Shown here: positions 1 through 13,666 of the stretch, piece by piece
Numbering within the stretch: position 1 is the first letter of the stretch
Layout: each line of letters opens with the position of its first letter
NCBI GenBank assembly: GCA_903934285.1
Contig: CAIZNN010000188.1
Location: 1 to 33,803, forward strand
Origin: Akkermansiaceae bacterium
Lineage (GTDB): Bacteria > Verrucomicrobiota > Verrucomicrobiia > Verrucomicrobiales > Akkermansiaceae
Length of the DNA: 33,803 nt
Direction: 5' to 3'
Translations under genes and position numbers: made by a program
Notes under the pieces: generated by a model
The model's input: only the letters and a program-made list of their open reading frames with translations
Database searches by the model: none
Told to the model about the DNA's origin: nothing

Positions 1-679
1 TCGCGTCATACGCCGCTGCGTGCGTGGCGTAGAGCACGCGTTCCTTGCCGCCCACACCACGCGTCTTGCCGCTGTCCTTTTCCGCGATGCGCGTGACATA
101 GTTGGCAAAGAGCACGATGTCGGCCCATTCCTTGAGCAGCGGCGCCACCGATTTGCTCAACTTCAGTTCAAACCGGTCGTAGCTGCCCGCTTGGTCCGGA
201 GCCTCGAATTTCTTCACTGTCGAGTGGGCGAGGAAGACGACGTTCATGCCGCGGGCGAGCAGGGCGTCGAGCGAATTGAGGAAGCGGGCGAATTCCTCGG
301 TCAGCAGGACCCAGCCCTTGCCGTAGCCGAAATCCTCGATGCTGTCCTTGTTAGCCTTCCGGCACAGGTGCTCGGAAAGCCGCTTCTCCAGCCAGTCCGC
401 TGTGTCGATAATCAGCGATTTGAACGGATGTTCCGCCTTGGCGAGTTGGGCAACGGCCGCCGTGATTTCGTCCCAGGTCGATGCCGCGTCGAGGCGGATC
501 ACGTCGAGGTGGTGGGTGCCGCCTTCCGTGTCGAGAAAGACGGGGGATGGTGTCAGGCTGGCGAGCGTCGATTTGCCGACGCCTTCAGGTCCATAAATGA
601 CGGCCTTTTGTGGCCGGGTGATTCTGCCGCGGCTGATTGCCAGGGCACCTTTGTTGGTGGGGGTGGTGGTTGTTTCCAT
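1..679 (-). CDS. AAA_24/Sak4-like P-loop ATP-binding protein (3' end off window)
   Basis: The leftward frame starts at an ATG on 679 and stays open to the window edge, so the C-terminus is missing; 226 codons are visible. A Walker A motif GPEGVGKST lies at residues 30-38, a hydrophobic strand ending in Asp (SLIID, 88-92) fits Walker B, and a GYGKGW motif follows. This combination is typical of the AAA_24 family of phage-type nucleotide-binding proteins, which includes RecA-like Sak4 single-strand annealing proteins. The family binds ATP and DNA and is often found in prophages and other mobile elements. The assignment as a Sak4-like annealing protein is inference; the P-loop ATPase call is firm. 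It is transcribed divergently from the genes to its right, and an 18-bp palindrome ends 46 bp upstream of its start. Confidence 0.8.
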   Translation of the reverse strand, partial: METTTTPTNKGALAISRGRITRPQKAVIYGPEGVGKSTLASLTPSPVFLDTEGGTHHLDVIRLDAASTWDEITAAVAQLAKAEHPFKSLIIDTADWLEKRLSEHLCRKANKDSIEDFGYGKGWVLLTEEFARFLNSLDALLARGMNVVFLAHSTVKKFEAPDQAGSYDRFELKLSKSVAPLLKEWADIVLFANYVTRIAEKDSGKTRGVGGKERVLYATHAAAYDA

Positions 680-724: not shown

Positions 725-872
725 AGTCGGACATGTCCGACTTTTGCCGATTTTTCCGGCCGGAAAGTCCGCAAACCCTTGATAAATCAACGAAAAATAA
801 TTTCAGAAAAATCCCGGAGCGGAGTCGGACATGTCCGACTTTGGGGTTTTCGGGAGTCGGACATGTCCGACT
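725..872. promoter_or_regulatory. Three copies of a perfect 18-bp palindrome
   Basis: The palindrome AGTCGGACATGTCCGACT occurs exactly at 725-742, 823-840 and 855-872. The last two are 32 bp apart, close to three helical turns, so a dimer on each would face the same side of the DNA. An AT-rich stretch lies between copies one and two (about 780-812). The array sits in the divergent region between the leftward P-loop gene and the rightward unknown genes. This placement suggests operators for a dimeric repressor, although a dispersed genomic palindrome family is also possible. A shorter 14-bp relative lies inside a coding region at 2542-2555. Confidence 0.6.
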
Positions 873-1033: not shown

Positions 1034-2188
1034 ATGCCTACGATTCGCCACCCACGACTTGTGCGACCCGGAGTGCTCTCCGGTCTCAAACGGACGAGCA
1101 TCCTGATGCTGCTTTCCCCATACTCCGATTACTTTGCCGCCCGAGGTGCCCCGCTGGACGAGATTGGCGACGACAGCGTTCCCCTTCACGACGTGGTGTC
1201 CGTCATCACGTCGCCGGTCGAATCCACGCCGCCCGACTTGGTTGAGCGCCTGGAGTTGATCGATTTGATTTCCGGCACGCAGAGCGCCATCAATTTTGAG
1301 GATGGCTACCAGCAGCTCGTGGAGAAACTTCGCGAGGATGGCGACTCTACGGACGACCTGGCGGTGAAGATCCTGATCCATGCTCCTGATGTGGCGTGGC
1401 GGGAGTTCGACCGTCAGGCAATTCAGGCGCCGCGCTCCCTGGTCGCATTGGGCGTTCGTCCGGGGCTGAAGTTCCGGCTGCCGAACGCCCGCCGGATCGA
1501 ACATTTCCGTGAGTTGGTCATTCCATGGTTCAAAGCCAATGACCGTTCCGGAATCTGCCACGTCCATGTCCGCGAGGAGTCCAACGGCGTGTCGTTCGTC
1601 ATTCGCCATGGCGACCCGCTCAGGCGCATCGGCGTCTATGAAGAGGACGGGAAACCCGGCTCCCGCCTCCTTCGCCCGGAACGGGTGGACGTGGCGCATT
1701 ACCGCCACCTGACTGGTGAGTGGCAAATCTCAGGGATCGGAGTGCGGCTGCAGGAACTCTACCGGCAGGCGTTCGGAACGGCTTTCCATGGCTCGGCAAA
1801 CGCCTTGGTGCATTCCAAGCGCTACTCACTGGAGCCGCTCCGTGACGGTCCATCGTGTCTCAAATGTGACATCAACTCCCGCATCCAGATCGCCGACTTG
1901 GTGTCCCTCAAGATCGAGCTTCCAAGCGGCAATCACGTCACCATCGGCGGCGGCGACGCGTTCAAGGGGATTCTGGAAATGAATCCCATGCTATTGCAGA
2001 CCGCGACCCTGCTCGAAGCCAAGATCAACCTCAAAATCTCCAACCGCCGCCGCCTGGCGCCGGTCATTCTTAATCCGCTGTGTGACAAAGTGTCCGGAAT
2101 CCACCTCGATGACGCCATCGAACCCTGGCTGAAGGCATGCCACTTCGCAAATGATTCCCATGAAGGCTTCGTTCTGGAAAGCGCTTGA
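1034..2188 (+). CDS. Hypothetical protein, first gene of an unknown two-gene module
   Basis: This is an open frame of 384 residues that I do not recognise. I chose the ATG at 1034 because it follows the inverted repeat directly; an in-frame start at 1007 would lie inside that repeat. The protein has no predicted signal peptide or membrane segment by eye. It is mixed alpha/beta in character, with a SCLKCD segment about two thirds along. Its 3' end overlaps the next gene by 38 bp, which points to translational coupling. It lies between the palindrome-bearing divergent region and hsdM, so a role in the defence island is possible but unproven. No function is proposed. Confidence 0.7.
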   Translation: MPTIRHPRLVRPGVLSGLKRTSILMLLSPYSDYFAARGAPLDEIGDDSVPLHDVVSVITSPVESTPPDLVERLELIDLISGTQSAINFEDGYQQLVEKLREDGDSTDDLAVKILIHAPDVAWREFDRQAIQAPRSLVALGVRPGLKFRLPNARRIEHFRELVIPWFKANDRSGICHVHVREESNGVSFVIRHGDPLRRIGVYEEDGKPGSRLLRPERVDVAHYRHLTGEWQISGIGVRLQELYRQAFGTAFHGSANALVHSKRYSLEPLRDGPSCLKCDINSRIQIADLVSLKIELPSGNHVTIGGGDAFKGILEMNPMLLQTATLLEAKINLKISNRRRLAPVILNPLCDKVSGIHLDDAIEPWLKACHFANDSHEGFVLESA

Positions 2189-3194
2189 GGCCCTCGGGGC
2201 ATCCGGTTCGGCGCTGTGCGACTGGAAACATCACCTCGACGACGACTGGGACGCGTGCGCCCGTTTCCTCAAACCCACCGGTCGAACCGCATTCAGCGTG
2301 ATTGACCCGCGGCAGCCGAAACGCCGATTGACCGTGGGCGTCGATGGAGACGAGGATTTCGTCGGCTACGGCGAAGATGAGCCGAGCCTCCCACCGGTCC
2401 CTTTCAGTGCCGGGGACGTCGCTGAGTTCAGTCCCCAATGGAATCCCATCGCCCAGGCGCTGGCACCCGCAGTTCCGTTTGACCACGGCGCATGGGAAAC
2501 CGAGGGGCAAATGCGACGGATCGGCTCGCTGCAGGACAAATTCGGACATGTCCGGCCGGTGCTTCTTTTCCTACCCGGCGGTCACCTGGGGGACTACACC
2601 GTTTTACTCCGGTCGCTTTCGGCGCGAACCGACAGCACGGTGCTGTTTCCGTCCGGTCGCTGGCTCACTGCCGACATCGAGAACCTGCGTGAACGCAACG
2701 GGTTGTCATTCGTGAACATTGCCGAGCGGCTGGCGCAGTTCGAGGCGGATCCAGCCTCCCGCGTCCCACTCCCTGCCGCAGGGGGTCGGCCGTCAGGCAG
2801 TGGTCCGGCTGTCCGGGCGTTGATCCATGCCGGAAACGACCTGACCTGGAATCAGGTCCGGATCGAGGTGAACGGCAGCAAGATGATCCTCCTGAAAGCA
2901 CCGGGCCAAGAGAGGGAATTCCATTTCCCGCCGAATGTCCAAGTGACGGCGGACCACGCCCTCGGAATGCTAATGCGCCTTGCCGCCGACGGCGAGTGGC
3001 GAAACCCGCCGCTCGGTTCTCTTGAATACGAACGGGTCAGCAGGGCATTCCGTCGTTTAAGACAACTGCTTCAAGCGCTCGTTCCGCTGCCAGGCGACCC
3101 GTTCAGTAAGCTGCACGGAGCGTTCATCCCGCTGTTTCAGATCCGCCTGCATCCGGGCCTTGAGGCTGAAATCTGCCGACGGACACCGCGATGA
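2151..3194 (+). CDS. Hypothetical protein, second gene of an unknown two-gene module
   Basis: This is a 347-residue open frame with no family I recognise. It begins inside the end of the preceding gene (38-bp overlap); a second ATG at 2160 is equally plausible as the start. A Gly/Pro-rich linker near the middle (about residues 200-220) separates an N-terminal half from a C-terminal half. The C-terminal half ends in an Arg/Leu-rich helical stretch (RAFRRLRQLLQAL). No signal peptide or membrane helix is apparent. About 190 bp separate it from hsdM. Codon use resembles its partner, so the two probably arrived and act together. A 14-bp version of the upstream palindrome lies within the gene at 2542-2555. 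Confidence 0.7.
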   Translation: MIPMKASFWKALEALGASGSALCDWKHHLDDDWDACARFLKPTGRTAFSVIDPRQPKRRLTVGVDGDEDFVGYGEDEPSLPPVPFSAGDVAEFSPQWNPIAQALAPAVPFDHGAWETEGQMRRIGSLQDKFGHVRPVLLFLPGGHLGDYTVLLRSLSARTDSTVLFPSGRWLTADIENLRERNGLSFVNIAERLAQFEADPASRVPLPAAGGRPSGSGPAVRALIHAGNDLTWNQVRIEVNGSKMILLKAPGQEREFHFPPNVQVTADHALGMLMRLAADGEWRNPPLGSLEYERVSRAFRRLRQLLQALVPLPGDPFSKLHGAFIPLFQIRLHPGLEAEICRRTPR

Positions 3195-3387: not shown

Positions 3388-5685
3388 ATGGACCAAGCCA
3401 CCCACAACAAAATAGTCTCCTTCATTTGGGGCATCGCCGACGATGTGCTGCGCGACCTCTTCCGGCGCGGCAAATACCCCGACGTCATCCTGCCGATGTG
3501 CGTGCTGCGCCGCATGGATGCCGTGTTGGAACCGACAAAGAAGGCAGTCCTTGAAACCAAGGAGATGCTCGACAAAGCCGGCATCACCGAGCAGACCGCC
3601 GCCGTTTGTTCCGCCGCCGGCCAGGCGTTCTACAATACATCCAAGTTCACACTGCGCGATTTGAAGTCACGCGGCAACCAGCAGTTGCTGCTCGCCGATT
3701 TCGAGGACTACCTCAATGGCTTCTCGCCCAACGTCCAAGACATCCTCGAAAACTTCAAGTTTCGCAACCAGCTCTCCACCCTCTCCAAGGCCGATGCCCT
3801 GGGCACCCTCATCGCCAAGTTCCTGGATCCCGAGATCGACCTCAGCCCCGCGGGCATCGACAACCACTCGATGGGGATGATCTTCGAGGAACTGGTTAGG
3901 AAGTTCAACGAGGACAACAACGAGGAGGCCGGGGAGCACTGGACTCCCCGCGACGCGGTCCGCCTGATGGCCAACCTGATCTACCTGCCCATCGCCGATC
4001 AAATCAAATCCGGTGCCTATCTGCTCTATGATGGCGCGCTCGGCACCGGCGGGATGGTCACCGAGGGCGAAGAAAACCTCCAGAGACTCGCCGTAGAGCG
4101 CAAACTCCAGATCACCACCCACCTCTACGGGCAGGAGATCAACCCTGAGACCTACGCCATCTGCAAGGCCGACATGCTGCTCAAGGGCGAGGGCGACAAC
4201 GCCGACCACATCGTCGGCGGCGCGGAGTGGTCCACACTTTCCCACGATGCCTTCCCCGCCCTCTGCTTCGACTTCATGATGTCGAATCCGCCCTATGGCA
4301 AGAGCTGGAAGAAGGACCTCGAACTCATGGGCGGCAAGGACGGCATGCGCGACCCGCGCTACAAGGTCATGCACAAGGGCGAGGAACTGTCGCTCGTCAC
4401 CCGTTCCAGCGATGGCCAGATGCTGTTCCTCGCTAACATGGTGTCGAAGATGCAGCATGGCACTCCGCTCGGCAGCCGCATCACCGAAGTTCACAACGGC
4501 TCCTCGCTCTTCACCGGTGATGCCGGCCAGGGAGAAAGCAACATCCGCAGGTGGATCATCGAAAACGACTGGTTGGAAGCCATCGTCGCCCTGCCCTTGA
4601 ACCTCTTCTACAACACCGGCATCGCTACCTATATCTGGGTGCTTTCCAACCGTAAGCCGAAGCCGCGCAAGGGCCGCGTCCAGCTCATCGACGCCAGCCA
4701 GTGGTTCAAGCCGCTGCGCAAAAACCTCGGCAAGAAAAACTGCGAGCTGGCCCCGGAGGACATTGAACGAATCACCCGCACTTTCCTCGACTTCAAGGAA
4801 GCGCCCGAATCGAAAATTTTCCCTAATGAGGCATTTGGCTATTGGAAGGTCGTCGTCGAGCGCCCGCTGCGGCTGCACAGCCAGCTCACACTGCCGCGCA
4901 TCGAGTCCCTGCGCTTCGCTTCCGGCGACGAGGATTTGCGCGCCCAGCTCTACGAGGAGTTTGGCGATGCGCTTTTCAAAGACTTTGAAAAAATTGCCGA
5001 TGCCGTTGGAAAATACGTGTCGGAATGGTCGGACGGGGCGGACGAGTCCGATGATGAAGACTCTCCCAAAAAAGGCCTGCCCGAGAAAAAGCAAAAGAAA
5101 TTGTTGGATCCGAAAACCTGGGAGCGCGACGGCCGTCTGGTAGAGACCGCCACCCGTCTTCGGGAGGAACTTGGCGGCGATCTCTTCACGGACCACAATG
5201 TCTTTCGCGAACAGGTCTTTGCCGCCCTCTGGAAACTCGACATCAAACTGCCCGCCGCTGATAGCAAGCAACTCTACAAGGCTGTTAGTTGGCGCGAGGA
5301 AAACGCCCCGCCCATTATCTCCAAAATTCACAAGCCCGGCAAAGCCAAGCCCGACCCGCTCCGCGGTCTATATGAAGTCATCGTCGGAGGGAAAAAATGC
5401 GTGGTCGAATATGAAACGGACGGCGACCTGCGCGACAGCGAGCAGATCCCGTTGTTGGAAGACGGCGGCATCGAGGCCTTTATCCGCCGCGAGGTTTTGC
5501 CTTACACTCCCGACGCTTGGGTGAAGCCGGATGCCACCAAGATCGGTTACGAAATCAGCTTCACCCGCCACTTCTATCAGCCGCCGGAATTGCGAACCCT
5601 CGCCCAAATCAGCGCCGACATCCTTGCGTTGGAGCAGGAAACGGAAGGACTGTTGAGCGAAATCACGAAAGGAGCTACGGCATGA
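3388..5685 (+). CDS. hsdM: Type I restriction-modification system DNA methyltransferase subunit
   Basis: HsdM is the SAM-dependent N6-adenine methylase of a type I RM complex; with HsdS it methylates the host recognition site and with HsdR it forms the nuclease. The N-terminus carries the HsdM_N helical domain (about residues 1-140). The methylase domain follows: a GEHWTPRD motif near 185, the SAM-binding motif DGALGTGGM at about 215-223, and the catalytic NPPY motif at 300-303. The SAM motif reads DGALGTGG rather than the commoner DPACGTGG. At 765 residues it is longer than classical HsdM (about 500-530); the extra C-terminal part contains an acidic Lys-rich linker near 550-570. Its stop overlaps the hsdS start by 4 bp (ATGA). 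Confidence 0.95.
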   Translation: MDQATHNKIVSFIWGIADDVLRDLFRRGKYPDVILPMCVLRRMDAVLEPTKKAVLETKEMLDKAGITEQTAAVCSAAGQAFYNTSKFTLRDLKSRGNQQLLLADFEDYLNGFSPNVQDILENFKFRNQLSTLSKADALGTLIAKFLDPEIDLSPAGIDNHSMGMIFEELVRKFNEDNNEEAGEHWTPRDAVRLMANLIYLPIADQIKSGAYLLYDGALGTGGMVTEGEENLQRLAVERKLQITTHLYGQEINPETYAICKADMLLKGEGDNADHIVGGAEWSTLSHDAFPALCFDFMMSNPPYGKSWKKDLELMGGKDGMRDPRYKVMHKGEELSLVTRSSDGQMLFLANMVSKMQHGTPLGSRITEVHNGSSLFTGDAGQGESNIRRWIIENDWLEAIVALPLNLFYNTGIATYIWVLSNRKPKPRKGRVQLIDASQWFKPLRKNLGKKNCELAPEDIERITRTFLDFKEAPESKIFPNEAFGYWKVVVERPLRLHSQLTLPRIESLRFASGDEDLRAQLYEEFGDALFKDFEKIADAVGKYVSEWSDGADESDDEDSPKKGLPEKKQKKLLDPKTWERDGRLVETATRLREELGGDLFTDHNVFREQVFAALWKLDIKLPAADSKQLYKAVSWREENAPPIISKIHKPGKAKPDPLRGLYEVIVGGKKCVVEYETDGDLRDSEQIPLLEDGGIEAFIRREVLPYTPDAWVKPDATKIGYEISFTRHFYQPPELRTLAQISADILALEQETEGLLSEITKGATA

Positions 5686-7061
5686 TAGAAGGGCTCAAAC
5701 CGTATGCGGAATATATGGAGTCGGGCCTGCCGTGGGTGCCCCGAGTCCCAGCGCATTGGGGACTTATCCCGAATCGAGCTGTGCTCAGGAAACGAAAGGT
5801 CCTTGTGGGTGCGAATTTCAAGAACTTCCAGCTTCTATCTCTCACAAAGGGAGGTGTGATCGTTAGAGACATTTCGACCGGCAAAGGCAAGTTCTCATCG
5901 GACATGGGAACAAGCCAAGAGGTTCGCAAAGGAGACTTTGTCTTCTGCCTTTTCGATGTTCCGGAAACCCCGCGTACCGTCGGATTATCTGCACACAACG
6001 GTATGATCACGAGCGCTTACACAGTGTTTGAACCACGAGCTCTGTCGCCAGAGCGTGTTCGTTACCTTGAACTCTTCTACATTGCGATGGATGATCGGAA
6101 ACTGCTGAGCCCGCTCTATTCCGGCCTTCGTCATACGATTCCGCCACCGCGGCTTCTCGGCACTAAAACACCTCAGCCGCCCCCCTCCGAACAAGATGCC
6201 ATCGTGCGCTTTCTGGACCACGCCAACCGCAAGATCGACGGCTTCATCCGCGCCAAGCGCATGCTGATTGGGCTGCTTAACGAGCAGAAGCAGGCCATCA
6301 TCCACCGCGCCGTCACCCGCGGCCTCAACCCCGATGTCCCCCTCAAGCCCTCCGGCATCCCCTGGCTCGGCGACATCCCGAAGCATTGGGAGGTGAAGAG
6401 GATGAAATACCTTCTCAAAGAGATCGATGACCGTTCGTCTGATGGGAGTGAAACATTGCTTCGTGTTTCTCAATATACGGGAATTACACCACGCATGGCG
6501 CAGGACGGCTCAGGTGAAGCCGATACGCGAGCAGAGTCGTTAGTCGGGTACAAGCTTGCTCGGAAAGGCGACATGGTCATAAATATCATGTTGGCATGGA
6601 ACGGCAGCCTTGCAGTGTCGGAACAGGAGGGGATCGTCAGTCCGGCCTACTGTGTTTATCGCTTCAAAAATGAGTTCCACCCTTGGTTTTTCCACCACCT
6701 GTTGCGCACGACGACCTACAAGAGCCGTATACGTATTGCATCAACTGGTGTGATTGAAAGCCGCCTGCGCCTCTACTCAGATGATTTGGGCCGAATTGAA
6801 GCGATCGTTCCGCCGCCCGATGAGCAGCGGTCAATCTGTAGTTCTATCCTTGGTGAAACACGCCATCTCTCCGCCGCCATCGCCCGGACCGAGCGAGAAA
6901 TCGCTCTGATGCAGGAATACCGCACCCGCCTGACCGCCGACATCGTGACGGGCAAGCTGGACGTGCGCGAAGCCGCCGCGAAGCTGCCGGAGCCAGTGGT
7001 AGAAGAAGCCAGCAATTCCGAAATCATCGAGGAAGAAACCGAACTGGAGGAAGCCGAATGA
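5682..7061 (+). CDS. hsdS: Type I restriction-modification system specificity subunit
   Basis: HsdS supplies DNA sequence recognition to the type I complex. The start at 5682 overlaps the hsdM stop and is preceded by a GGAG ribosome-binding site. The 459-residue protein has the expected two-fold layout. Each target-recognition domain opens with a W-x-P-x-HW-like segment (VPRVPAHWG near residue 20, GDIPKHWEVKR near 230). Each is followed by a PPPxEQ motif and a long helix (about 170-220 and 380-440). The two TRDs are more AT-rich than the conserved helices, as is usual for exchanged recognition domains. The C-terminal tail after the second helix is acidic and low complexity. The stop overlaps the next gene by 4 bp. 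Confidence 0.93.
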   Translation: MIEGLKPYAEYMESGLPWVPRVPAHWGLIPNRAVLRKRKVLVGANFKNFQLLSLTKGGVIVRDISTGKGKFSSDMGTSQEVRKGDFVFCLFDVPETPRTVGLSAHNGMITSAYTVFEPRALSPERVRYLELFYIAMDDRKLLSPLYSGLRHTIPPPRLLGTKTPQPPPSEQDAIVRFLDHANRKIDGFIRAKRMLIGLLNEQKQAIIHRAVTRGLNPDVPLKPSGIPWLGDIPKHWEVKRMKYLLKEIDDRSSDGSETLLRVSQYTGITPRMAQDGSGEADTRAESLVGYKLARKGDMVINIMLAWNGSLAVSEQEGIVSPAYCVYRFKNEFHPWFFHHLLRTTTYKSRIRIASTGVIESRLRLYSDDLGRIEAIVPPPDEQRSICSSILGETRHLSAAIARTEREIALMQEYRTRLTADIVTGKLDVREAAAKLPEPVVEEASNSEIIEEETELEEAE

Positions 7062-7966
7062 CACCACCAAGCTACGACACGTTTTCCCAAAAAGACAGGC
7101 TCTTCAGCCGCGAGCAAATCGACGATTTTGCTGCTCTCATGGCTCGTCTTAGAGATCTGAAATTGGCCGGCTTTTATTTCAGGGGGCAGAGAGATGCTGG
7201 CTGGAAACTCTACTCTTGGATTCAGCGCGAATGGATTCAGAAGGATGAATTGGCTACCAAATTGTCATCGGTAGCAGATTTCAATGAGCAACACCTTCGC
7301 TATCAGCAAGAACATGCGGCAAGGTCTCTCACGGAGCATACAAGGCAGCGGAACGACTTGGCCGACTTAAGCGGCTTGCAGCACTACGGAGCCCCCACTC
7401 CCTTTCTTGATTTCACCTCGGAGATCGACAGTGCCCTGTTCTTTGCTACCGACGGTATGGCTTCAGCTAACGATCGAGAGACCAGCCAGCGGGTTTCGAT
7501 TTACGCATGGAAGCCAGGCAGTGGTCCTGCCACAGCTTCTCACAACGACATGACAAACTGGGAAACCGTTGTCGACAACTCGGGCTGCATTGATGGAGCT
7601 GTCAGCCTCCATGTCTTGTGCCCGATCAGCGTCATCTATATCAAACAGGATTCAGGAAAGTTCCTCCAGATTGCCAACGACCGGATCGACTTGCAGAACG
7701 GGCTGTTTGTATACTCGCCCAAGGCAATCCGTGAGGGAATGCCTTATGAGGAGCTTTTCACCGGCATGACCATTGATGACGTCGTGGACGATTACCATGG
7801 CCTGTTCATCCCAAAAATGCTGTGCCTTGATGTGGACAAGGGAGTCGCAGCCAAAGCCATTGATTACGTGCGTGATCAAGGAGTCTCAAAAGAGTCCCTC
7901 GGCTTGGCCTCAGGCGATTGGGCGAGAGACACTTATGATGCTTTTTTGAAAATGATTACCGGTTGA
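7058..7966 (+). CDS. FRG-domain protein embedded in the type I RM operon
   Basis: The 302-residue product has an FRG domain (PF08867), named for the Phe-Arg-Gly motif seen here as FYFRGQRD with the motif at residues 41-43. A second family signature, QHYGAPTPFLDFT followed by ALFFAT, lies near 107-130. FRG proteins are common in phage-defence islands and prophages; their biochemical activity is not established in the general case. The start overlaps the hsdS stop by 4 bp (ATGA), so it is translated with the RM genes. The next gene begins 3 bp after its stop. Base composition is less GC-rich than hsdM, hinting at a separate origin. A role as an accessory effector or guard of the RM system is inference. 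Confidence 0.88.
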   Translation: MTPPSYDTFSQKDRLFSREQIDDFAALMARLRDLKLAGFYFRGQRDAGWKLYSWIQREWIQKDELATKLSSVADFNEQHLRYQQEHAARSLTEHTRQRNDLADLSGLQHYGAPTPFLDFTSEIDSALFFATDGMASANDRETSQRVSIYAWKPGSGPATASHNDMTNWETVVDNSGCIDGAVSLHVLCPISVIYIKQDSGKFLQIANDRIDLQNGLFVYSPKAIREGMPYEELFTGMTIDDVVDDYHGLFIPKMLCLDVDKGVAAKAIDYVRDQGVSKESLGLASGDWARDTYDAFLKMITG

Positions 7967-7969
7967 ACC

Positions 7970-8749
7970 ATGCTTCCTCTCCTGTCAGCCACTCGCTTCA
8001 CCAAGGTCATGGGTTCCGGGCGGACCCAGCCCTGCCTGATGGGTTGCGAGAACGAGGCGGGCGATGAGGTCGAGGTGGTGGTGAAGCTGCGCAAGCATCC
8101 GCAGATCCTGCCGGGCGGTTGCGTGGCGGAGTCGATGGCCTCGTTTCTGGCTCTCGACCTGGGATTGGCGGTGCGGCAGCCCTACCGCGTGCATATCAGC
8201 AAGGACTTCGCTCAGACGGTGCCGGATACAGGGCTGCGGGCGATTCTTGAAAAGAGCGAGGGCCTGAATTTCGGCTGTGCCAAGTGGGGGCCGGGTTACA
8301 CGATCTGGCCGCGGGACCAGTCGCTCCCCAAATCGATGAAACGGACGGCGATGGAGATTTTCGCCTTCGACGGGCTGATCCAGAACCCGGACCGTCGGGC
8401 GGCGAACCCAAATTGCGTGTTTCTGGGCGACGAATTCATGATTTACGACCACGAGACCGCGTTTTCCCACTTCATCACCCTGTTTGCCAGGCCCCCTTGG
8501 GAGCCCGGTGGGGTGGATTTTCTGAAGGATCACATTTTCCGGGTGGTTCTCCGGGGCGAGCACTTGGAGCTGGACCGGTTCCAGGGGGCGCTGGAAGCGC
8601 TCGACGAGAGCCGGTTCCGGGCGTATGTTGACGCCGTTCCCGTCGAATGGAACGGGGAGGCGATCACCGGGGAGCGAATCGCCGAATATCTCCTGAATTG
8701 CATTCCCCACTTCAACCGTATCAAGCTGCAACTCCAGACCGTCCTATGA
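7970..8749 (+). CDS. HipA-like kinase-fold protein (HipA_2 type)
   Basis: This 259-residue protein resembles the HipA-like kinase family (PF20613). Kinase-type motifs are visible: a Lys in VVVKLR near residue 38-43 could bind ATP, DGLIQNPDRRAANPN at 134-148 matches the HipA catalytic loop and metal-binding Asn, and YDHETAF at 159-165 occupies the DFG-like position (Asp160). It is much shorter than HipA (about 440 residues), lacking the N-terminal HipA subdomain. It follows the FRG gene by 3 bp and overlaps the DUF3037 gene by 4 bp. HipA_2 and DUF3037 genes are, to my knowledge, often adjacent. Ser/Thr kinase activity and a toxin-like role are inferences from the family. Confidence 0.85.
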   Translation: MLPLLSATRFTKVMGSGRTQPCLMGCENEAGDEVEVVVKLRKHPQILPGGCVAESMASFLALDLGLAVRQPYRVHISKDFAQTVPDTGLRAILEKSEGLNFGCAKWGPGYTIWPRDQSLPKSMKRTAMEIFAFDGLIQNPDRRAANPNCVFLGDEFMIYDHETAFSHFITLFARPPWEPGGVDFLKDHIFRVVLRGEHLELDRFQGALEALDESRFRAYVDAVPVEWNGEAITGERIAEYLLNCIPHFNRIKLQLQTVL

Positions 8750-9609
8750 CTAAGCAACCCTATACCTACACCGTGCTCCGGTATGTCCATGACACCGGCA
8801 CGGGCGAATTTGCCAATGTGGGAGTGGTGCTGACATCTCCCGCTGCCCACTACGCCGCCGCCATCCTGCGCCCAACATACGGGCGGCTTTCCAAGATGTT
8901 CCCCGGCATGGACGGGGATCATTTCCGCCGGGTGATCCGGCATTTGCAGGGCCGTTTAGACGAACTTGCGGCCCGCCTCCGTGAGGAAATCGACCTCGGC
9001 CAGACGCCGGGAAGTGCGCTCGAAATGGCCCATGGGGTGATCGCGGCGGACGACAGCGCGTTCCAATGGTCGCAGATGGGTAGCGGTCTCGCGGCGGATC
9101 TGCCCGCCGCCCTGCAATCCATTTACGAGCGGATGGTGGAACGCTACGACGAGAAGCCGAAGTCAGAGAGCCGCAGCGACGAAGAAGTGTGGCGGACGTT
9201 CAAGAAAGGGTTTGAGGAACGGAAGGTGCTGTCGCGGTTCCACTCAAAAGCCATCGCTGTGGAGGATGACGAGGTGGTATTCTCCCATGTCTGGCAGAAC
9301 CACCAATGGCACTGCATGGAGACCGTCTCTTTCGACCTCATGCAGCCGCAAAGCATTAAGGACAAAGCACATTCTTGGCTGGGCCGGATGACGAGTATCC
9401 AGGGAGCGCCGGAAGAGTTCCGGGTTTATTACCTAGTGGGCGAGCCGCAGCACGAAGGCAGCCGCAAGGCCTTCGGGCAAGCCCTGAATGTTCTCCACAA
9501 GACCCCCGTGCCGCACGAGATCGTCCGCGAGCATGATGCCGAGGGGTTCGCTTCCGAGATGGCGGAGAAGATTGCGGCCCATGATGAGGAGCTCCGCAAA
9601 AGCGAGTGA
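8746..9609 (+). CDS. DUF3037 family protein, partner of the HipA-like kinase
   Basis: The 287-residue product matches the DUF3037 family by its N-terminus: an aromatic YTYTVLRYVHD segment, then FANVGVVL near residue 24 and LRPTYGRL near 45. Family function is unknown. The ATG at 8746 overlaps the kinase stop (ATGA), which defines this start and indicates coupled translation. The middle is Asp/Glu-rich helix and the C-terminal half begins with an SRFHSK segment. By analogy with toxin-antitoxin pairs it might restrain or target the kinase, but this is inference from gene order only. It is the last gene of the cluster before a 197-bp gap and hsdR. Confidence 0.85.
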   Translation: MTKQPYTYTVLRYVHDTGTGEFANVGVVLTSPAAHYAAAILRPTYGRLSKMFPGMDGDHFRRVIRHLQGRLDELAARLREEIDLGQTPGSALEMAHGVIAADDSAFQWSQMGSGLAADLPAALQSIYERMVERYDEKPKSESRSDEEVWRTFKKGFEERKVLSRFHSKAIAVEDDEVVFSHVWQNHQWHCMETVSFDLMQPQSIKDKAHSWLGRMTSIQGAPEEFRVYYLVGEPQHEGSRKAFGQALNVLHKTPVPHEIVREHDAEGFASEMAEKIAAHDEELRKSE

Positions 9610-9629
9610 CCCACTCCTAGAAGCCCTTG

Positions 9630-9662
9630 CGCAAAGGCCTACGCAAAGGCCTACGCAAAGGC
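9630..9662. repeat. 12-bp direct tandem repeat
   Basis: The unit CGCAAAGGCCTA occurs at 9630-9641 and 9642-9653, and a third partial copy (nine bases) follows. It lies in the 197-bp gap between the DUF3037 gene and hsdR. The gap holds no other gene. A TTGACG hexamer near 9755 could be a -35 element for hsdR but no good -10 follows at standard spacing. Confidence 0.75.
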
Positions 9663-9806
9663 AAAGCGTTCATTCAATGAACTGAGGGAGATAAACCCCG
9701 TTTTTGAGATCACCCGCTGGTTTTCGATAGGAAAACGGTACCGCAGAAGTCGCGATTGACGCTGGCCTGAAATCCGGGCACTCTATCAGCCAAGTCTGAT
9801 TAGCGT

Positions 9807-12800
9807 ATGCCCCCCACCACCGACATCTCCGAAAGAGGCCTCGAAACCCTGATACTCTGCGACATGACCGGCGAGGACGGCCTTTTCGAGGATGCCACCG
9901 CAACGGTTGCCGAAACGCCGGACGGGATGGCGGCGCGAAAGGCCGAGGGGGGCGGGTGGTATGCCGGACGTCCGGCCGATTACGACCGCGTGTATTGCCT
10001 CGATGTGCCGCAGCTTTTTGCCTTTCTGCGGGCGTCCCAGCCGGACACGCTGGCCAAGCTCGGAATTGCCGATTACCGGGACCCGAAGAACATCGCCCGC
10101 CAAAAGTTCCTCGCTCGGCTCAGCTCGGAACTCGGCAAGCGGGGTGTGATAGACGTGCTCCGCCGGGGCTTGGAAGACGGTCCGCTTCACTTCGAGTTGT
10201 TCTACGGCACGCCATCACCGGGTAACGAGACTGCGGCCGGACTCTATGCGCATAACCGCTTCAGCATCACCCGGCAAGTGCGTTACAGCCAGGACGAAAC
10301 GCGGCGTGCGCTTGACCTCGCTGCCTTCATCAACGGTCTGCCGGTGATCACCTTTGAGCTGAAAAACAGCCTCACGAAGCAGACTGTGGAAGACGCCGTG
10401 GAGCAGTACCGGCGCGACCGCGACCCACGGGAGAAGCTTTTCTGCTTTGGCCGTTGCATGGTCCACTTCGCGGTGGATGATGCGGAGGTGCGGATGTGCA
10501 CCGAACTGAAAGGCAAGGCATCCTGGTTCCTGCCCTTCAATAAGGGTTGGAACGACGGTGCCGGCAATCCGCCCAATCCAGACGGCCTGAAAACCGATTA
10601 CCTGTGGAAGCTCGTGCTCGCGCCACCCAGCCTGACCAACATCCTGGAAAACTACGCGCAGATCATCGAGGTCAAGAATCATAAAACCGGCAAAAAAAAG
10701 TTGGTGCAGATATTTCCTCGCTTCCATCAGCTCGGCGTGGTCCGAGAATTGTTAGGTGATGTGGAGGACCACGGGGCGGGCAGTCGCTACCTTGTCCAAC
10801 AGTCCGCCGGCAGCGGAAAATCCAACTCCATTGCCTGGCTCGCCCATCAATTGGTCCGCGTGCGTCACTTGGGAAGCGAAGTCTTCGATTCTGTCATCGT
10901 CGTCACCGACCGCCGGATTCTTGATGACCAGCTTCAAAGGACGGTCAAACAGTTCATGCAGGTGCGGGCCACGGTTGGCCACGCGGAGCGCTCCGGCGAC
11001 TTGCGCCGCTTCATCGCTGAAGGCCGCAAGATCATCATTACCACCGTCCAGAAGTTTCCCTTCATTCTCGATGAAATGGAGGGTGAAGGGGCTGGGAAAA
11101 CCTTCGCAATTGTGATCGACGAGGCCCACAGCAGCCAGGGCGGCAAGGCATCCATCGCCGTGAGCAAGGCTCTGGCCGATCCCGAAGACGAGATCAACGA
11201 TGCCATCGAACAGCGGATCAAATCCCGCCGCTTGCTCAAGAATGCCAGCTACTTCGCCTTCACGGCAACGCCCAAAAACAAGACCTTGGAGCTGTTCGGC
11301 ACCCCCTTGCCGCCGGATGCCGAGGGCAAAATCAAGCACCGGCCATTCAACACCTACACAATGAAGCAGGCCATTCAGGAGGGCTTCATCCTCGATGTAT
11401 TGCGCAGCTACACGCCGGTCAACAGTTATTACCGGTTGGTCAAACGAATCGAAGACGACCCGGAGTTCGATACCCGCAAGGCCCGCAAAAAACTACGCCG
11501 CTACGTCGAGAGTCACGACCACGCCATCCGCCTCAAGGCCGAGATCATGGTGGATCATTTTCACGACCATGTACTTACCGTTGGCAAGATCGGCGGCAAA
11601 GCGCGGGCCATGGTGGTGTGCAGCGGCATCGAGCGTGCCATCCAGTATTACCACGCCTTCAAGGATTACCTGGCAGAGCGTAAGAGCCCATATCAAGCCA
11701 TCGTCGCCTTTTCCGGCGAGCCCGAATACAAAGGCGAAAAGGTCACCGAGTTCTCGCTCAATGGCTTCCCGAGTTCCGAAATCGCCGACAAGGTTCAAGA
11801 GGATCCGTATCGCTTCCTGATTTGTGCCGACAAGTTCCAAACCGGTTACGACGAACCGCTCCTCCACACCATGTATGTGGATAAGGTGCTGTCCGGCATT
11901 AAGGCCGTGCAAACACTCTCCCGCCTCAACCGCGCCCACCCGGACAAGCGGGATGTCTTCGTCCTCGATTTCCAGAACAACACCGAGACGATCACCGAAG
12001 CCTTCTCCGCCTATTATCGCACCACCATACTCAGCGACGAGACCGACCCGAACAAGCTTCACGATCTCAAGCTGGCGCTAGACGCGGCCCAGGTCTATTC
12101 ACAGGACCAGATCGACAATATCGTCGAACTCTTCCTCGCCGGAGCCGGTCGCGAAAAGCTGGACCCGATCCTCGATGTCTGCGTGGCCACTTATCTCGAA
12201 CAGCTCGATGAAGACGGTCAAGTGGATTTCAAGAGCAAGGCAAAGGTGTTCACCCGCGCATACGATTTCCTCGGTTCCATCTTGCCCTACGGCAACAGGG
12301 AATGGGAAAAACTCTCCATTCTTCTAAACCTGCTGATCCCGAAGCTGCCGGCCCCCGAAGAAGAAGACCTTGCCAAAGGCATCCTTGAATCCATCGATAT
12401 GGACAGCTACCGCGTGGAGAAAAAGCAGGCGATCAAGGTGGCCGTTTCAGATGAAGACGCCGAAATCGACCCGATGCCCGTTGAAGGTGGTGGCCGCAAA
12501 CCTGAACCTGATCTTGATCGCCTAAGCAATATCCTCAAGGCCTTCAACGAACAGTTCGGCACGCTATTCACCGACGCCGACCGCATCTTCACACGCATCA
12601 AGGACGAAATAGTCCCGCTGGTTGCCGCCGACCAAGCCTTCCGCAACGCCCGTGAAAACACCCCGGCAGCCGCACGCATTGAGCACGACAAGGCCCTCGC
12701 GAAAGTGATGCTCACTCTGCTCAAAGACGACACCCAAGTTTACAAGCAATTCGTCGAAAACGAGGCATTTCGCAGAGCCGTGAGTGATTTTGTGTATTCT

Positions 12801-12815
12801 CTGACGGCAGCTTGA
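9807..12815 (+). CDS. hsdR: Type I restriction-modification system restriction subunit
   Basis: HsdR is the ATP-dependent translocase and endonuclease of the type I complex. The 1002-residue length is normal. The N-terminal nuclease domain shows the PD-(D/E)xK core as Asp170 with Glu184-x-Lys186 in ITFELKN. The helicase part has Walker A (SAGSGKS, about 333-339), the DEAH box at 438-441 (IVIDEAHSSQ), a FTATP motif near 488, and later motor motifs including QTGYDEP and the SRLNR segment. The C-terminus is helical, as expected for contact with HsdM/HsdS. The ATG at 9807 has no obvious Shine-Dalgarno sequence. It is separated from hsdS by three accessory genes, an unusual order. All catalytic motifs look intact. 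Confidence 0.95.
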   Translation: MPPTTDISERGLETLILCDMTGEDGLFEDATATVAETPDGMAARKAEGGGWYAGRPADYDRVYCLDVPQLFAFLRASQPDTLAKLGIADYRDPKNIARQKFLARLSSELGKRGVIDVLRRGLEDGPLHFELFYGTPSPGNETAAGLYAHNRFSITRQVRYSQDETRRALDLAAFINGLPVITFELKNSLTKQTVEDAVEQYRRDRDPREKLFCFGRCMVHFAVDDAEVRMCTELKGKASWFLPFNKGWNDGAGNPPNPDGLKTDYLWKLVLAPPSLTNILENYAQIIEVKNHKTGKKKLVQIFPRFHQLGVVRELLGDVEDHGAGSRYLVQQSAGSGKSNSIAWLAHQLVRVRHLGSEVFDSVIVVTDRRILDDQLQRTVKQFMQVRATVGHAERSGDLRRFIAEGRKIIITTVQKFPFILDEMEGEGAGKTFAIVIDEAHSSQGGKASIAVSKALADPEDEINDAIEQRIKSRRLLKNASYFAFTATPKNKTLELFGTPLPPDAEGKIKHRPFNTYTMKQAIQEGFILDVLRSYTPVNSYYRLVKRIEDDPEFDTRKARKKLRRYVESHDHAIRLKAEIMVDHFHDHVLTVGKIGGKARAMVVCSGIERAIQYYHAFKDYLAERKSPYQAIVAFSGEPEYKGEKVTEFSLNGFPSSEIADKVQEDPYRFLICADKFQTGYDEPLLHTMYVDKVLSGIKAVQTLSRLNRAHPDKRDVFVLDFQNNTETITEAFSAYYRTTILSDETDPNKLHDLKLALDAAQVYSQDQIDNIVELFLAGAGREKLDPILDVCVATYLEQLDEDGQVDFKSKAKVFTRAYDFLGSILPYGNREWEKLSILLNLLIPKLPAPEEEDLAKGILESIDMDSYRVEKKQAIKVAVSDEDAEIDPMPVEGGGRKPEPDLDRLSNILKAFNEQFGTLFTDADRIFTRIKDEIVPLVAADQAFRNARENTPAAARIEHDKALAKVMLTLLKDDTQVYKQFVENEAFRRAVSDFVYSLTAA

Positions 12816-12847
12816 GAGCAGGGATCTAAATCTAGCACATTCGAATC

Positions 12848-13666
12848 ATGCGCCTTCACCGCTACTTCGGAAGTCACTCCGACACCACTCTCGGAGAGAA
12901 ACGTCTGTTACTTGCAAAAGTTTCCGACTTCAATGATCCATTTGAATTTATTCACCGTTTTGTTGGTGACTACACCGTAGATCATGCGGAAAAAGACCTC
13001 CAGTGGATGACAGACACCGATGTGCATATCTTTCTTTCTAAGATCGAGGGTTCACTGGATTCAAATTATCTCAAGGAATGTTTGCCACGGCGGCGCTTGG
13101 CAGAATTCTTTGTCAGTTCCGGCGGGAGGCCGCCTATAGATCCACATTATAGTCACAAATTGGCGGACAATTATTTTCGACTTTGCTGCTTTAGCATGAC
13201 TGATGTCACCCCTGATTCAGAGATTTTGCTGTGGTCACATTACGCGAAAAGCCACCAGGGAGTCAGAATCGAATTCGATTTTGATGAACAAACACTCCCG
13301 CTTTTCAAGGTGAATTATTCGCACTACCGTTGTGCTGTTGAATTCGCTAAAGCATACGATGGAACCCATACAAATGAGGTTCTCAAGCAAACATTCCACA
13401 CCAAGGCGCTTGCCTGGGCATATGAGAACGAGGTGCGACTTGTCATCTACAAGGATTCTGTAGTGAAAAGGCCGATTCCGCTTGGTTACAAATACTATTT
13501 GCAATTCGATCCACACTGCGTGAAATCAGTGGATTTCGGAATTAACTGCGATTCAGAGACGATCGAAGTCGTGAGCACCATTCTCAAATCGGATTACCCC
13601 CACGTTCCGATGAGGAAGGCATTTCACCACACTGAAGATTACGCGATTGAATATCGCCCGACATAG
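12848..13666 (+). CDS. DUF2971 family protein
   Basis: The 272-residue product carries the DUF2971 signature: an N-terminal RYF with FNDPFE near residues 33-38, then CFSM followed by LLWSHYAKSHQGVRIEFD (about 118-150). DUF2971 proteins are common in defence islands and are often found singly beside restriction systems; their activity is not known to me. It starts 32 bp after hsdR on the same strand and may be cotranscribed. Its codon use is clearly more AT-rich than hsdR, which suggests a separate and later acquisition. No membrane segment or signal peptide is seen. Confidence 0.85.
   Translation: MRLHRYFGSHSDTTLGEKRLLLAKVSDFNDPFEFIHRFVGDYTVDHAEKDLQWMTDTDVHIFLSKIEGSLDSNYLKECLPRRRLAEFFVSSGGRPPIDPHYSHKLADNYFRLCCFSMTDVTPDSEILLWSHYAKSHQGVRIEFDFDEQTLPLFKVNYSHYRCAVEFAKAYDGTHTNEVLKQTFHTKALAWAYENEVRLVIYKDSVVKRPIPLGYKYYLQFDPHCVKSVDFGINCDSETIEVVSTILKSDYPHVPMRKAFHHTEDYAIEYRPT

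Follow-up and report, generated by a model that had tools for sequence, protein, structure and literature searches.

RdgC is a DNA-encircling bacterial protein that forms a ring-shaped dimer and inhibits RecA. The combination of a helix-turn-helix (HTH) repressor with an ImmA/IrrE peptidase is the arrangement known as ImmR-ImmA, and a RexAB defence system of a Pseudomonas putida prophage is reportedly the subject of one paper. In phage lambda, RexA and RexB form a two-gene module in the immunity region near the repressor and operators, as do the Rex homologues Sbash gp30, CarolAnn gp44 and Sejanus gp46. Lambda RexA, encoded in the immunity region, is described as binding DNA and tilting the switch to lysis (PMC11077077; PMC4080450). 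An RdgC-type fold for RexA, its resemblance to IML3/CHL4 and the exclusion of other phages by actinophage Rex homologues have also been reported (PMC11077077).

Here we examine two overlapping genes, P1 and P2, near one end of a 33,803-nucleotide stretch of contig CAIZNN010000188.1 (assembly GCA_903934285.1) from an Akkermansiaceae bacterium, hereafter the window. We lean, with modest confidence, towards reading P1-P2 as the cassette that occupies the immunity region in a group of temperate tailed Verrucomicrobiota phages and works like the lambda Rex module, because it shares with Rex its place and the kind of its first protein. No description of the pair is among the matches listed in open-licence literature on RdgC, RexA, CENP-N/L and Verrucomicrobia prophage defence.

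P1 and P2 form a conserved gene pair

A profile of P1 retrieved 37 loci, 32 of them distinct (five are the same record fetched twice), and P2 adjoins P1 in 36; the exception, L049, stops at a contig edge. P1 and P2 are therefore genuine genes. The window P1 is 22-68% identical to 27 aligned homologues. P1 occurs in 5 of 59 genomes of the source genus and order, the source genome counted, and in 21 of 387 genomes (16 of 197 genera) of a phylum sample. Ten loci of a species-genome collection, found through one conserved pattern, all come from Verrucomicrobia or its subgroups, four of them from Akkermansiaceae or Akkermansia. Alignment-based searches of IMG/VR found 20 and then 25 contigs carrying P1; a scan with one sequence as query detected no viral contig, and the plasmid and isolated-phage collections yielded no P1.

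In another set, comprising 24 P1 genes, 16 are accompanied by P2 (with one gene intervening in L118) and two by a weak P2 (L121, L129); four are interrupted where the contig stops (L087, L090, L120, L130) and one (L123) has a shorter gene that by eye resembles the P2 of L129. In the remaining locus, L124, P1 and P2 are naturally fused (9452-11581, 709 aa), and the fusion ends in another HTH (Sigma70_r4_2, score 28.4 bits, cut-off 25.7). This fusion is good evidence that P1 and P2 act together and suggests that the C-terminal end of P2 binds DNA.

The reading frames of the window pair share 38 bp (2151-2188), and a GTG at 1007 offers an alternative start that would add nine residues to P1. Neither window protein matches a Pfam or PADLOC family at E ≤ 1. 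Pfam gave no family for any of seven P1s tested and one sub-threshold match each for two of eight P2s; in PHROGs, searched with P1 alone, the window protein had no match and 28 P1s had weak matches only (best E 0.0078). A housekeeping or virion gene was rejected on the missing Pfam matches for the window P1 and P2 and the weak PHROGs matches for the P1s. The initial annotation had described two genes of about 385 and 347 residues with a 38-bp overlap, fitting no recognised family and lying between a mobile-element type ATPase and hsdM, and it was right on each count. No clear match to a housekeeping or phage structural family emerged (from Pfam, and from PHROGs for P1); the left neighbour, divergent from the pair, encodes the AAA_24 ATPase, and the right neighbour encodes HsdM (N6_Mtase and HsdM_N above cut-off) of a type I restriction-modification (RM) locus.

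There are two near subfamilies of P1, about 25% identical to each other, and the window belongs to subfamily 1. In subfamily 2, P1-P2 is preceded by an HTH gene and in most cases by a gene for an M78 (IrrE-type) peptidase as well, similar to the HTH repressor plus ImmA/IrrE type. Subfamily 1 did not show that arrangement, and no separate repressor gene was recognised in it.

The pair lies beside a phage replication module

On the opposite strand, left of the AAA_24-P1 gap, are genes for AAA_24, a DUF2800 protein (weak PD-(D/E)XK match), a sub-threshold DUF669 protein, a helicase and a primase-like AAA_25 protein. This phage replication module is the constant neighbour in both near subfamilies; the window contig ends inside AAA_24. 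Applied to ten hand-chosen proteins, PHROGs named a terminase large subunit, a portal and a major head protein on each of two contigs, G068 and G060, a tape measure protein on G068 and G066, and a head protease and an integrase on G068. Elsewhere, the source genome holds one matching terminase (contig C173), a subfamily-2 cassette (C13) and two primase copies (C11 and C269; the query was a 500-aa part of primase c3).

Two further phage features were noted in related loci. In L077, a pair of neighbouring phage genes 5' of the terminase gene (11458-13625) gave ParB_N-type matches, one just above and one below the cut-off, and similar genes were seen on other contigs by eye. A large serine recombinase lies near P1-P2 in the distant loci L111 (12804-14327, Pfam-confirmed), L114 (7531-8442), L115 (3379-4956) and L116 (11462-13039).

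Operator-like palindromes occupy the gap before P1

The initial annotation had given the pair its own upstream control region with an inverted repeat and palindromes, and this region is indeed present: the gap holds three palindromes with the core GGACATGTCC, and an inverted repeat lies just 5' of P1 (Table 1). The core occurs six times in the 4.8-Mb genome, four times in the window (three in the gap, one within P2), and the reversed pattern used as control does not occur at all; this clustering is more than chance. It is present in 10 of 15 related records (nine subfamily-1 virus records and the L030 genome), in the same gap throughout, and in none of five subfamily-2 records. The extra copy inside P2 is at 2544-2553 in the window, and the closest relative, L040, has one inside P2 as well (8485-8494).

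Operators of subfamily 1 carry outer flanks C..G or G..C around GGACATGTCC (types assigned by hand), and those of subfamily 2 read GTGAG-CTCAC, which a simple pattern detected in 8 of 13 loci. Despite the differing sequence, the distance between the AAA_24 start and the first operator stays within 49-55 bp in all 12 subfamily-1 and in six of eight subfamily-2 loci measured. A second operator in subfamily 1 follows 87-88 or 97-98 bp beyond the first, two spacings that differ by about one helical turn. Distances were taken for 12 of 14 subfamily-1 loci, L043 and L047 being left out. A promoter scan found no clear promoter for P1 or AAA_24.

Operators and P1-P2 are exchanged as a unit

Shuffle tests, which treat related phages as independent and whose numbers are therefore guides and not probabilities, showed that flank type in 14 subfamily-1 loci tracks P1 (3/2000) and P2 (0/2000) but not the left-hand genes (AAA_24 794/2000, c6 1663, c5 1516, c4 1372, c3 1585, c7 1813, c8 1969). 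The test covered 14 of 16 subfamily-1 loci, leaving out L033 (short contig) and L035 (two extra gap genes); L087, L088 and L128 (C-type), L089 (G-type) and L090 (mixed) also stand outside it. Between the subfamilies (27 loci, with 13 of 16 distinct subfamily-2 loci, L038/L019, L051 and L052 being left out), P1 and P2 separate completely (0/1000 each). The body genes are about equally similar across and within subfamilies (c2 161, c6 430, c5 514, c4 672 and c7 297 of 1000), and c3 (46/1000) and c8 (38/1000) show a slight trend with subfamily.

Identity between body genes reaches 96-100% in the best cross-subfamily pairs, which include c7 and c8 in L043/L055 and AAA_24 in the window and L021, and the window AAA_24 is 96% identical to that of the genome's second, subfamily-2, cassette. 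Identity across subfamilies does not exceed 28% for P1 and 25% for P2. The operators and P1-P2 are exchanged as a unit on a shared phage body, as expected of a temperate-phage immunity cassette.

P1 has a predicted RdgC/CENP-N-type fold

The predicted model of P1 (pLDDT 83, pTM 0.77) gave five Foldseek matches in the PDB at E ≤ 0.001, all of them RdgC or CENP-N/Chl4 chains. VIA-align Z scores for the model were 11.2 with CENP-N, 10.9 with Chl4, 10.8 with RdgC, 9.4 with CENP-L and 9.3 with Iml3; the next unrelated fold scored 5.4. RdgC aligned over 221 residues at 5.9 Å, and the CENP-N chain 7bxt_M over 181 residues at 4.5 Å from P1 residue 67, a likeness at the level of the fold. CENP-N alignments start at P1 residues 65-68 and RdgC alignments at 128-131, the helices in between being covered by CENP-N only. 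Among viral models, 12 matched P1 at E ≤ 0.001: four named recombination-associated protein or RdgC, two exonuclease and six without a telling name. Structure prediction and fold search, proposed in the initial annotation, have thus led to a predicted RdgC/CENP-N-type fold for P1, which would bind DNA, and to weak matches only for P2.

P1 has no sequence match to PDB chains, and the RexA structure 8twq is not among the 50 matches listed for P1. A sequence-level homologue of RexA or RdgC is ruled out for P1 by hhalign, with which sequence similarity between RexA and RdgC is likewise undetectable. A resemblance between RexA IEPL and P1 LEPLR was dropped as chance, the stretch not being conserved in Sbash, CarolAnn and Sejanus.

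Like the Rex module, P1-P2 lies in a phage immunity region with operators in the gap (and an HTH gene alongside in subfamily 2), and its first protein has an RdgC-type fold in the predicted model. Unlike RexA, P1 lacks the family's sequence similarity and Pfam match, and unlike RexB, with its five membrane segments, P2 is not a multi-pass membrane protein: by hydropathy, 19 of 24 P2s have no membrane segment and five have one marginal segment, the window P2 having none. With neither the sequence family nor the membrane partner, P1-P2 is not a member of RexAB; we take it as a new Rex-like variant. RdgC, in its chromosomal, plasmid and phage copies, resembles P1 in the predicted fold of residues 128-380, whereas P1 differs in having about 130 extra N-terminal residues, a constant partner and an operator region. 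The kinetochore proteins CENP-N/Chl4 are the top structural matches of the P1 model, its N-terminal helical part included. In contrast to the CENP-N/CENP-L (Chl4/Iml3) pair, P1-P2 sits in a bacterial phage, and no CENP-L is among the matches listed for P2.

The P2 model (pLDDT 86, pTM 0.65) had no Foldseek match at E ≤ 0.001, and its C-terminus is weakly predicted to be a winged HTH. In 29 P2s, no column is basic in at least 75%, and only E13 and D89 are acidic in at least 75%, both outside the core strands (121-140); a catalytic PD-(D/E)XK nuclease was rejected, the conserved acidic/basic catalytic set being absent from the core.

A CENP-N-like fold next to repeated palindromes could also indicate a partition (centromere-like) system of a phage-plasmid. 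This is very improbable, given just one to four sites in the gap, ahead of an operon, an integrase on one related contig, and no ParA-like gene seen by eye in the near neighbourhood lists.

A LexA-box-like site may link part of subfamily 1 to DNA damage

The LexA box of Verrucomicrobia is TGTTC-N4-GAACA. Three perfect sites occur in the source genome (control, 1), one of them 14 bp 5' of the start of lexA (recognised by its S24 and LexA_DNA_bind domains) and another upstream of recA, 123 bp from the RecA domain match and about 60 bp from the likely start codon; these two sites calibrate the motif for this host. The window site at 1008-1021 has one mismatch. Within 80 bp before P1, 13 of 21 subfamily-1 loci have a site with at most one mismatch (none in six, one in seven), and in subfamily 2 the single one-mismatch site found in 11 loci scanned is located in the cargo. 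In the distant locus L130, the beginning of P1 is overlapped by an S24 gene (1361-2074) whose match to a LexA-type DNA-binding domain is sub-threshold. Judged from these motifs, the LexA-box-like site would tie P1-P2 to DNA damage in part of subfamily 1.

The same sites, the predicted RdgC fold of P1 and the position beside the replication module would also suit a damage-induced, RdgC-like modulator of RecA or of phage recombination and replication, with the operators serving an unseen regulator. We consider this improbable: operator type tracks P1-P2 and not the replication genes, P1 and RdgC share no sequence similarity, and we know of no P2-like partner for RdgC.

Defence genes beyond P2 vary from locus to locus

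Within the two subfamilies, a gene is called past P2 in 31 distinct P1-P2 loci, and in 22 of these, an uncontrolled count, defence genes can be recognised at that place. The kinds include type I RM, type III RM, BREX, DISARM, Mokosh-like, HNH and PDC-S11. There is redundancy in the set, with eight of the 22 sharing one kind of type III methylase gene (L018, L040, L051-L054, L056, L089), and L017 carries its RM genes on the opposite strand about 2 kb away. None were recognised in eight loci (L019, L020, L021, L030, L031, L041, L042, L045; part of their genes scanned), and L059, where the contig ends, is undecided. Assignments came from PADLOC for representatives and from BLAST clusters for the remainder, read by hand. 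The count excludes loci without a gene beyond P2 (L002, L043, L049, L055, L087, L090), second copies (L033-L035, L038, L039), P2-only loci (L022-L026) and more distant loci (L091, L111-L127, L129, L130). Among more distant loci, L117, L118, L120 and L121 have defence genes on the P1 side, and none were recognised in L111-L116 (both partly by eye).

Because the kind of defence varies while P1-P2 is constant, we read these genes as variable prophage cargo outside the P1-P2 module. The initial annotation had proposed a candidate defence or regulatory system beside the defence island. Homologues do lie near defence genes, as the neighbourhood survey shows, but a mainly defensive role beside a chromosomal island is not supported, given the constant phage replication module, the virion genes on the two contigs tested and the varying defence genes; the regulatory half of the proposal fits better, since P1-P2 behaves as an immunity-region cassette.

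The main role of P1-P2 might instead be to serve the prophage in superinfection exclusion or abortive infection, with expression in the lysogen like that of RexAB, P1 sensing foreign DNA or recombination intermediates and P2 acting as effector. The defence genes in 22 of 31 loci and the exclusion of other phages by actinophage Rex homologues (PMC11077077) would agree with this. It seems unlikely to us: PADLOC assigned the pair to none of its defence families, an obvious effector is not marked by any membrane segment or conserved catalytic set, and the operator region is constant where the cargo is not. An extra exclusion effect of P1-P2, as for lambda Rex, may accompany the regulatory role that we favour.

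Features of the window

The coordinates of the pair and its control region are collected in Table 1. Beyond hsdM, the gene in the hsdS position (5682-7058) has no Pfam match at E ≤ 0.01 and is HsdS-like by eye. Between it and hsdR (7058-9609) are an FRG-domain gene (PDC-S15) and a HipA-like kinase/DUF3037 pair (PDC-M66A, PDC-M66B), candidate defence genes within the RM locus, and directly past hsdR a DUF2971 gene (12848-13666) matches the candidate defence family PDC-S31. No tRNA that could mark an att site was found in the window.

Table 1 Features of the P1-P2 locus in window coordinates
Feature	Position	Strand	Description
AAA_24 ATPase gene, phage replication module	2..679	-	Pfam AAA_24 E 8e-54; truncated by contig edge
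Operator-like palindrome 1 (core GGACATGTCC)	725..742		18 bp, perfect; centre 54 bp from AAA_24 start
Operator-like palindrome 2 (core GGACATGTCC)	823..840		18 bp, perfect; 98 bp from palindrome 1
Operator-like palindrome 3 (core GGACATGTCC)	855..872		18 bp, perfect; 32 bp from palindrome 2
Inverted repeat just 5' of P1	1002..1027		26 bp, 10-bp arms; contains LexA-box-like site 1008-1021
P1	1034..2188	+	ATG 1034, stop 2188; 384 aa; predicted RdgC/CENP-N fold
P2	2151..3194	+	ATG 2151, stop 3194; 347 aa; 1-216 weakly restriction-endonuclease-like, 235-335 weakly winged-HTH-like

Discussion

In the Rex-like mechanism we propose, P1 would be a DNA-binding protein of the RdgC/RexA/CENP-N fold and P2 a partner supplying the weakly predicted winged HTH. 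Because no sizeable gene other than P1 and P2 was recognised in the subfamily-1 cassette besides the operators, the pair, most likely through P2, would read the GGACATGTCC operators that precede the phage replication operon, from AAA_24 onward, and help to set the lysis/lysogeny state. The LexA-box-like site could allow SOS induction of P1-P2; that the induced pair would push or lock the switch toward lysis is a tentative suggestion by analogy with RexA, possible though doubtful.

Several observations weigh against this account. P1 has low TM-scores against RdgC and CENP-N (0.29-0.35 among the PDB matches), which we take to reflect a common fold with altered geometry. P1 shows no sequence similarity to RexA (hhalign probability <1%; no match to Pfam RexA, PF15969, which lambda RexA as control does match) or to RdgC (36 P1s against seven RdgCs, hhalign probability 0.03%). 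For P2, the VIA-align matches are weak (Z ≤ 6.2), with OmpR-type winged HTHs at 235-335 (up to 6.2) and restriction-endonuclease folds at 1-216 (up to 5.8). The second operator sits between the first and P1, so its co-inheritance with P1 may be mere linkage, and linkage could be a partial source of the association between operators and P1. Small open reading frames (ORFs) of at most 69 aa within the AAA_24-P1 gap leave room for another small regulator; their short common matches track shared DNA, and no common small gene was established. In subfamily 2, the HTH protein is the likelier operator reader. As for the damage link, 8 of 21 subfamily-1 loci have at least three mismatches to the LexA box, and one-mismatch sites show no enrichment across the genome (27, with 36 in the control), so the case for the window site rests on its position and its relatives. 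An SOS-controlled repressor would also be odd, so the effect may be of either sign.

A bolder proposal, which we put forward as speculative and rather unlikely, is that P1-P2 would be a new kind of phage immunity regulator, in which an RdgC/CENP-N-fold DNA clamp with a winged-HTH partner takes the place of a CI-like HTH repressor. Operator specificity would travel with the pair, part of the group would be coupled to the host SOS response, and, in architecture, P1-P2 would come closer than anything else in prokaryotes to the CENP-N side of the kinetochore CENP-N/L pair. The predicted link between P1 and the CENP-N fold would bear on the origin of the kinetochore fold.

If the Rex-like reading is correct, RdgC-fold Rex-like modules would recur in an unrelated phage group, beyond lambda and the actinophages, with operators exchanged together with the genes. 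The site just beyond P2 would be a collecting place for defence systems, and P1-P2 could be used as bait for more of them. The natural series of cassettes, with two flank types and a sister set carrying HTH and M78 genes, would make the role of the RexA/RdgC fold at the lysis/lysogeny switch testable.

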